From contig JALVIU010000067.1 of the NCBI GenBank assembly GCA_027028665.1, positions 1-5,823 on the forward strand: a stretch of 5,823 bases of DNA. Direction: 5' to 3'. Numbering within the stretch: the stretch's first letter is position 1; every line of letters begins with the position of its first letter. The position numbers and the translations under genes are program-made. Source of the DNA: Candidatus Atribacteria bacterium. Lineage in GTDB: Bacteria > Atribacterota > JALVIU01. This document shows positions 3,165-4,332 of this stretch, piece after piece. The notes under the pieces were generated by a model that saw nothing but the letters and a program-made list of their open reading frames with translations, was not told the origin of the DNA and made no database searches.

Positions 3165-3896
3165 TTATTTCTTTATTACGGAAATTTTTTTTGCATATTT
3201 TAATACCTGCCGTGTACCACCTCCCTGACTTATAATTTCAAGAATTTTCATGTTATTCACAGGTTTAGTACCTGAGATCATATCGACATGTTCTAAAATA
3301 TAAGGAGAAAAATTGGCACTTGGGCCCAGGAGAATCTTCTTTGCATTTCCTGCCCATTTTACAATATCTAAAAAGGTTCTATTTATAAGGGTTGTAGCGG
3401 TTATTATAACCACATCACACATAGGGAGGATATCACGGGCAGCCCAGTCTGGATATGCATCCATAAATGGTTTTTTTTCAAATATGTAAAGCCTTTTAAC
3501 CATGGGTTTAAGAGTTTTTATTACTGGATCAAATCTTCCTACCATTCCTACAGTTTTATCTTTAAAATCAAACCACTCTGTTACATCTCCTTCCATATTA
3601 CTCTCTATTTCTGAATTTATAATAGCATTAACTGTGGCAAGACCAATAGAGCTACTTATAGTACCTGGGTAAAACCAGAGCTGGGCAAGATCATAAGCAG
3701 TAAGGCCTCTAAACTTACCCGCTTTATCCATTACGCTACAGGTAGGAGGGAGCTCATCTCTTAATGTGTAGGATAACCCCAATTTTCCATCATCTAAAAG
3801 TACCCCAATATATCCTATACCTACACGTACATCCTCTATTACCCTCTCTTTTAATTCTCCTTCTATACTTTCTACAATTTTTCTAAAAATGTTCAT
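3165..3896 (-). CDS. DUF4213/DUF364 putative metal-chelation protein
   Basis: The 243-residue protein has the two-part layout of the DUF364 (putative heavy-metal chelation) family. Residues 1-95 match the DUF4213 N-terminal region, with DVRVGIGYIGVLLDDGKLGLSYT (22-44) as its typical opening. Residues 110-235 form a Rossmann-like DUF364 domain with VGMVGRFDP (115-123), CDVVIITATTLINRT (159-173) and GPSANFSP (190-197). No signal peptide or membrane segment is seen, so it should be cytoplasmic. Family members are thought to bind metals or a small ligand, but no reaction is established as far as I know. AAAGGAG at 3903-3909, 6 nt from the ATG, overlaps the stop codon of the upstream NifU-like gene. 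The 11-nt gap between the two genes argues for co-transcription and probably linked roles. Confidence 0.85.
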   Translation of the reverse strand: MNIFRKIVESIEGELKERVIEDVRVGIGYIGVLLDDGKLGLSYTLRDELPPTCSVMDKAGKFRGLTAYDLAQLWFYPGTISSSIGLATVNAIINSEIESNMEGDVTEWFDFKDKTVGMVGRFDPVIKTLKPMVKRLYIFEKKPFMDAYPDWAARDILPMCDVVIITATTLINRTFLDIVKWAGNAKKILLGPSANFSPYILEHVDMISGTKPVNNMKILEIISQGGGTRQVLKYAKKISVIKK

Positions 3897-3907
3897 GGCT
3901 TGCTCCT

Positions 3908-4273
3908 TTATTTCTCTGGAAATGTCTTTAATAGATCTGAGATAAGCTCATAGACACGGGGAGACTCTCCTCCCAAAATAGCATTGATATTATCCAGGCT
4001 CATGGCCTTTACCTCTTTCAAGCTTTTGCCCTCTGCAAATCTACATATAATATCAGAAGCTATATAAGAAGGAGGGATACAATAGTTGCATATATATGTA
4101 ATTTCTTCTATAATATCTCCCTTCTTTTTTATGTAAAATACTATATCATCTGAGCTTCCTGCTCCTTTACATCCCTCACCTTCTATTTTGATATCATAAT
4201 CAGAAAGCTCACCCTTTCTGGGGAATCCCTCCTTTTTTATCTTTTCGAAATATGTCCTCATAACTTCATCCAT
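3908..4273 (-). CDS. IscU/NifU-like small protein with altered cysteine set
   Basis: The 121-residue protein aligns by eye with the IscU/NifU N-terminal scaffold fold. The stretch SSDDIVFYIKKKGDIIEEITYIC (40-62) parallels the GDV...IKV...I.D..F..YGC of IscU. IASDIICRFAEGKSLKEV (71-88) parallels its second conserved block. Cysteines are at 35, 62, 65 and 77. Cys35 and Cys62 fall near the first two cluster ligands of IscU, and Cys65 makes an extra CxxC. The third ligand, in the HCS motif of IscU, is missing: the equivalent region reads SPRVYEL (104-110). It may be a divergent Fe-S or metal-binding protein and not a standard scaffold. An in-frame ATG at 4312 is rejected because it lies upstream of the predicted transcription start; AGGAGG at 4280-4285, 6 nt from 4273, fixes the start. 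It is co-transcribed with the DUF364 gene. Confidence 0.7.
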   Translation of the reverse strand: MDEVMRTYFEKIKKEGFPRKGELSDYDIKIEGEGCKGAGSSDDIVFYIKKKGDIIEEITYICNYCIPPSYIASDIICRFAEGKSLKEVKAMSLDNINAILGGESPRVYELISDLLKTFPEK

Positions 4274-4279
4274 TTTGTA

Positions 4280-4285
4280 CCTCCT
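4280..4285 (-). promoter_or_regulatory. Ribosome binding site that sets the NifU-like start at 4273
   Basis: The minus strand shows a perfect AGGAGG, 6 nt before the ATG at 4273. The longer frame from 4312 would translate through it. Confidence 0.8.
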
Positions 4286-4303
4286 ATTGTTAGTATTATT
4301 TCG

Positions 4304-4332
4304 ATTATACATTATTTCGCAAATATTTACAA
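4304..4332 (-). promoter_or_regulatory. Sigma70-type promoter for the NifU-like/DUF364 unit
   Basis: On the minus strand TTGTAA (4327-4332, 4/6 match to the -35 consensus) is followed after 17 nt by a perfect TATAAT (4304-4309). The start of transcription is expected near 4297, leaving a leader of about 24 nt. This is the best-formed promoter in the window. Confidence 0.7.

Follow-up and report, generated by a model that had tools for sequence, protein, structure and literature searches.

The three cysteines of IscU are treated as near-invariant. To our knowledge, the minimal Fe-S system SMS (SmsCB) contains no U-type protein, and we know of no function that has been assigned to the DUF364 family. 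In IscU the cluster ligands are three cysteines (C37, C63 and C106 in E. coli) plus either Asp39 or His105 (PMC13423590). SufU holds zinc with conserved Cys and Asp ligands while a mobile Cys takes the persulfide, and His354 of Mtb SufS is zinc-capturing (PMC10216065). In M. jannaschii the SmsCB machinery works with sulfide, can do without a desulfurase and depends on a C-terminal C239/C242 pair (PMC12192291). Genes of the DUF364 family occur near genes for Fe, W, V and Mo transport, and a role in metal chelation has been proposed for the family (PMC2954201).

In this paper we describe a window of 5,823 nucleotides, which is an entire 5.8-kb contig of a 1.79-Mb assembly (413 contigs, about 90% complete). 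It encodes a variant IscU/NifU-fold protein of 121 aa, P0001 (3908..4273, minus strand), followed by P0002 (3165..3896, minus strand), a 243-aa protein with DUF4213 and DUF364 domains from a putative heavy-metal-chelation family. The IscU/NifU family itself is known, and the best label for P0001 is a new, altered-ligand variant of this U-type scaffold family, with a putative function. The reading that we prefer, and to which we give about an even chance, is that P0001 would be a divergent U-type scaffold or carrier for an Fe-S cluster or metal, with a relocated third thiolate, next to DUF364 in one lineage. If the third Cys has indeed been relocated in a natural variant that two unrelated bacteria share, the scaffold site would prove open to rebuilding, and the variant would allow the ligand positions important for assembly to be told apart from those important for release.

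By profile alone the assignment of P0001 to the family is weak, with a Pfam NifU_N (PF01592) score of 14.3 bits, below the curated cut-off of 22, and a TIGR03419 match at E 0.0024. The IscU/NifU fold is nevertheless confirmed by the relative P0003, which lies above the same cut-off (25.6 vs 22 bits), by profile-profile comparison with canonical NifU (hhalign, E 9e-11), by a genome-sample search in which the loci examined encode canonical NifU/IscU-type proteins, and by the predicted structure. An AlphaFold2 model built from a two-sequence alignment (pLDDT 84.9, pTM 0.82) was used instead of the single-sequence model, which was poor (pLDDT 50.7) yet indicated the same fold. In a Foldseek search with the model the best 50 matches are all IscU or SufU chains, with E values down to 2.8e-7. 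The best VIA-align score is to holo-IscU 2z7e_B (Z 12.5, rmsd 2.5 A over 114 residues), and comparison with SufU structures gives Z values of about 9-11. Among the structures of the PF01592 scaffold family, 2z7e is the IscU of A. aeolicus and 4eb5 that of A. fulgidus. The original prediction of an IscU/NifU-like fold, made from the letters of the window, is therefore borne out over nearly the whole chain, even with a sub-threshold Pfam score of its own. The model is least secure in the insert after Cys35 (residues 35-40, pLDDT < 50).

The ligand columns were read from a MAFFT L-INS-i alignment of P0001 with 25 homologue rows, in which E. coli IscU is present twice. Cys35 (codon 4169..4171, minus strand) occupies the column of the canonical first ligand Cys (E. 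coli C37), Asp42 (4148..4150, minus strand) that of the canonical Asp (D39), and Cys65 (4079..4081, minus strand) that of the canonical second ligand Cys (C63); all 25 rows carry Cys, Asp and Cys, respectively, in these columns, and phmmer and hhalign place Cys65 in the same register. The distance from the second Cys to the column of the third is also IscU-like. P0001 departs from IscU and NifU in having a 5-residue insert between Cys35 and Asp42, and in an extra cysteine, Cys62 (4088..4090, minus strand), which lies three residues before the second ligand Cys at the position of E. coli T60, forms a CxxC with Cys65, and is matched by Cys in only 1 of the 25 other homologue rows. A further departure is at Glu109-Leu110 (codons 3944..3949, minus strand), which replace the canonical His105-Cys106. 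Glu109 stands in the His105 column and Leu110 in the Cys106 column, where Cys is found in 24/25 rows. With Cys35, Asp42 and Cys65 in canonical columns, P0001 lacks no ligands other than the His-Cys pair, and Cys62 is a gain; from the alignment, Cys62 likely replaces the third thiolate. Since the third Cys is a defining ligand of IscU and is missing on testing, P0001 is not classed as a functional IscU. Cys35, the CxxC at 62-65 and the lack of an HC motif near residue 105 had all been read correctly in the original prediction, which had missed the canonical columns and overlooked Cys77, also present in P0001.

A different register was obtained with default MAFFT and canonical NifU, in which Cys62 would fall in the second-ligand (C63) column. 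We consider this alternative the less likely one: Cys65 is the choice of phmmer, hhalign and MAFFT L-INS-i alike, and it requires fewer gaps. Two NifU-like proteins found elsewhere also have unusual sites. One, at locus L033 (G234:C281), has a CxxC (FQCLGC) together with an HC motif, and could be an intermediate between the canonical site and that of P0001; the other, a protein of 120 aa at locus L041 (G348:C9), keeps the His but carries Val where the third ligand Cys would be (KRHVALLV).

In the preferred reading, the metal site of P0001 would be formed by Cys35, Cys62 and Cys65 together with the conserved Asp42, the third Cys having in effect left the C-terminal helix (His-Cys) for the end of the third strand, where it makes the CxxC. 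The most likely role of the protein would be to bind one metal ion or a labile Fe-S cluster and hand this on, and a U-type carrier function is our best-supported guess. A bolder proposal, which we consider somewhat unlikely, is that proteins with the third Cys in a third-strand CxxC constitute a separate class of U-type scaffold with a different site, which in the lineage of the window would feed the DUF364 enzyme. If that were so, the third-strand CxxC site would perhaps be more stable or competent for [4Fe-4S], and the cluster or metal would be supplied to the DUF364 enzyme.

A single true relative of P0001 was found, P0003, on contig JAMOTN010000010.1 (MAG bacterium isolate 4571-419; about 28-30% identity, E 3e-12). 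Its host is of an unrelated lineage in a different phylum from that of the window and is the only genome of that phylum in the collection. The two proteins have the Cys35, Asp42, Cys62 and Cys65 columns in common (TYxCxxC) and both have lost the His-Cys pair, the Cys106 column being occupied by His in P0003. A ligand set different from that of IscU, as had been suggested for P0001, is thus plausible, given that a Cys and a CxxC without HC are kept at this level of identity. P0003 differs from P0001 in that CxD (C-P-D) is kept after the first Cys, the insert is two residues shorter, and the NifU_N cut-off missed by P0001 is reached. The gene contexts differ as well: P0003 is encoded immediately after a SufS-type cysteine desulfurase (TIGR01979 E 1e-97), whereas P0001 precedes DUF364. 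The position of P0003 directly after the desulfurase ties the subfamily to Fe-S or sulfur handling.

A search of 49 genomes from the phylum of the window gave no homologue of P0001 at E 0.001; with the limit relaxed to E 0.1, a few of these genomes showed weak matches, apparently to ordinary NifU/IscU-like proteins. Searches of viral contigs and of plasmids returned no homologue. When the genome collection was scanned with the two-member alignment of P0001 and P0003, the contig of P0003 was the sole return, and profile scans of further genome samples, which are largely overlapping sets, gave no third member. The other matches in those scans had far lower scores, and the ones that were aligned are of canonical NifU/IscU type. 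The subfamily therefore rests on two sequences.

This narrow distribution is one of the points that suit a reading in which P0001, a NifU-fold protein in decay or put to another use, would have no metal site and might, for instance, serve the DUF364 enzyme as a regulatory or protein-binding subunit; the others are the insert in the active-site loop and the loss of a third Cys that nearly all homologues keep. Against it, Cys35, Asp42 and Cys65 are kept, Cys62 is common to the distant relative, and the open reading frame is intact, with its own ribosome site and a promoter-like site. Simple decay is unlikely because P0003, in an unrelated bacterium, has also lost the His-Cys pair and gained the CxxC. 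Recurrence of the ligand pattern argues for selection, thin as two sequences are, and we hold decay or repurposing to be distinctly unlikely.

The desulfurase beside P0003 invites comparison with SufU. P0001 could be a SufU-like sulfur-transfer or zinc protein, with a structural Zn on Cys and Asp and with Cys35 accepting the persulfide. SufU shares the fold of P0001 and its Cys and Asp active-site columns, and the sole relative of P0001 adjoins a SufS-type enzyme. P0001 nevertheless lacks both the third Cys and the insert that SufU-type rows carry ahead of it, its spacing between the second Cys and the third-Cys column being that of IscU, and no cysteine desulfurase was identified in the genome of the window. 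The SufS encoded next to P0003 also differs from the usual partner of SufU in the absence of the zinc-capturing His: in an alignment to 9ddd it has Arg at the position of His354 of Mtb SufS, and for this reason a SufU mechanism is not favoured at that locus. We therefore regard the SufU-like reading as unlikely. In MIS-type systems a scaffold is paired with a cysteine desulfurase; the desulfurase is absent from the window, where none adjoins P0001, and such a pair was seen only at P0003, with an enzyme of SufS type.

The preferred reading, in which P0001 is a carrier with a relocated thiolate, can be set against the Fe-S machinery of its own genome. In this assembly, which is about 90% complete and was searched one family at a time, no other NifU_N protein was found. 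SufC, with a C-terminal CELC (a CxxC), and SufB are encoded side by side elsewhere in the genome, and the SufB scores best with SmsB, below the cut-off of that model. No cysteine desulfurase was identified in the assembly; the best Aminotran_5 protein was examined and resembles aspartate-glyoxylate or pyridoxamine-pyruvate aminotransferases, not a desulfurase. Because the assembly is incomplete to this extent, a desulfurase or a canonical IscU could sit in an assembly gap. The genome is like the SMS system in having SufC with the C-terminal CxxC beside SufB and in having no identified desulfurase, and P0001 would be an addition to such a system, not a member of it. As SmsCB can use sulfide, a U-type carrier beside SmsCB-like machinery is possible without a desulfurase, a suggestion that depends on the incomplete assembly. 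P0001 would then act beside a minimal SufB/SufC machinery without need of a cysteine desulfurase, and since machinery of this kind needs none, sulfide would be the sulfur source.

All protein-coding genes recognised in the window are on the minus strand. The claim that P0001 and P0002 are tightly spaced, with an 11-nt gap, is exact (3897..3907, minus strand). The gap contains the Shine-Dalgarno sequence AGGAG of P0002, whose longer form AAAGGAG overlaps the TAA stop codon of P0001 as well as the gap. P0001 has a Shine-Dalgarno sequence of its own, AGGAGG (4280..4285, minus strand), located 6 nt before the ATG, which backs a start at the ATG at 4273. A promoter-like site, TTGTAA-17-TATAAT (4304..4332, minus strand), ends 30 nt ahead of the P0001 start codon and is the best upstream match in a consensus scan (10/12). 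What had been described as a well-formed promoter is well formed as a site, and as evidence it is weak, because promoter-like sites as a class are no commoner in this AT-rich window than in shuffled sequence (21 found vs 26.8 expected). Around the pair lie genes for a protein with a NAGPA-type glycosidase domain, for a family 2 glycosyltransferase and for a large protein that has no Pfam match and looks membrane-like by eye; no metal-related gene is among them. At 3-497 the window also encodes a short lipoprotein-like protein, in which a Thr/Pro-rich repeat linker (TPTGTPTATPTPT...) comes after a hydrophobic N-terminal stretch that ends in Cys.

The assignment of the second gene to DUF4213/DUF364 holds, both domains of P0002 scoring above the curated cut-offs (61.2 vs 23.5 and 117.4 vs 23 bits; PF13938 E 1.2e-16, PF04016 E 5.5e-34). 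Its solved relatives are 3l5o and 3npg. The Rossmann-like domain of P0002 can be aligned with those of the family (Dhaf4260, 3l5o; 3npg), including conserved Gly, Glu and Thr positions. P0002 has a NifU-fold protein as its neighbour, whereas elsewhere the family is found with transporter, Mo-cofactor or thioredoxin genes. With a neighbour of a fold linked to known metallo-chemistry, this DUF364 member offers a concrete subject for biochemical testing. If the preferred reading is right, P0002 would be co-transcribed with P0001 and would probably handle either the metal of P0001 or a small ligand of that metal, as a lineage-specific partnership.

A stronger proposal, made in the original prediction, is that the pair forms a true two-component metal module, in which P0001 would carry a metal or cluster that the DUF364 protein makes, loads or uses. 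The arrangement of the genes, on one strand with an 11-nt gap, separate Shine-Dalgarno sites and one promoter-like site, would suit such a module, as would the thiol, Fe-S or Mo genes that tend to accompany DUF364 elsewhere, including upstream thioredoxins at L099 and L105. When open reading frames within about 3 kb of DUF364 in either direction, or as far as the contig reached, were searched with profiles, a NifU-like neighbour was found at 0/58 other DUF364 loci. No DUF364 gene lies next to P0003, which adjoins the SufS-type desulfurase; a distant DUF364 member of its host genome lies on a separate contig. The adjacency of P0001 and P0002 is thus found in one lineage, its conservation as a module is not supported, and by the criterion that the original prediction set for itself, adjacency kept in related genomes, the module claim fails on present data, from collections that lack close relatives; we think such a module improbable. 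A weak phmmer match beside DUF364 at locus L024 turned out to be a thioredoxin. A link to the selenium-associated Sao genes was rejected, a weak SaoX profile match in one same-phylum locus being the only match.

Sulfur- and metal-related genes nevertheless recur around DUF364, so a NifU-fold neighbour fits as a lineage-specific arrangement. Thioredoxins occur near DUF364 in 4/58 loci, twice directly upstream in the position held by P0001 (L099 and L105). The thioredoxin-like proteins adjoining DUF364 are at L099:2649-2972, L105:2587-2892, L091:3674-4009 and L094:2914-3252, and twice they overlap or abut the DUF364 start. L-cysteine desulfidase-like proteins (SDH_alpha) are encoded near DUF364 in three loci (L096:1243-2286, L120:1699-2784 and L079:2527-3570), that of L096 within a cluster of MinD-ferredoxin, Nitro_FeMo-Co and MBL-fold genes; MinD-ferredoxin and Nitro_FeMo-Co genes stand beside DUF364 in one locus. 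In the phylum of the window, a molybdopterin-binding-domain protein is linked to a divergent, more weakly matching DUF364 subgroup in 14 loci (L086, L087, L129, L127, L133, L085, L122, L121, L082, L126, L123, L080, L132 and L124), a conserved operon whose role is perhaps Mo/W- or sulfur-related. Several of these loci also encode a second DUF364 protein and an NMT1-type substrate-binding protein, and the molybdopterin-binding-domain protein of L086 has a Cys-rich C-terminus, FCSICSACHYPYCYFGR.
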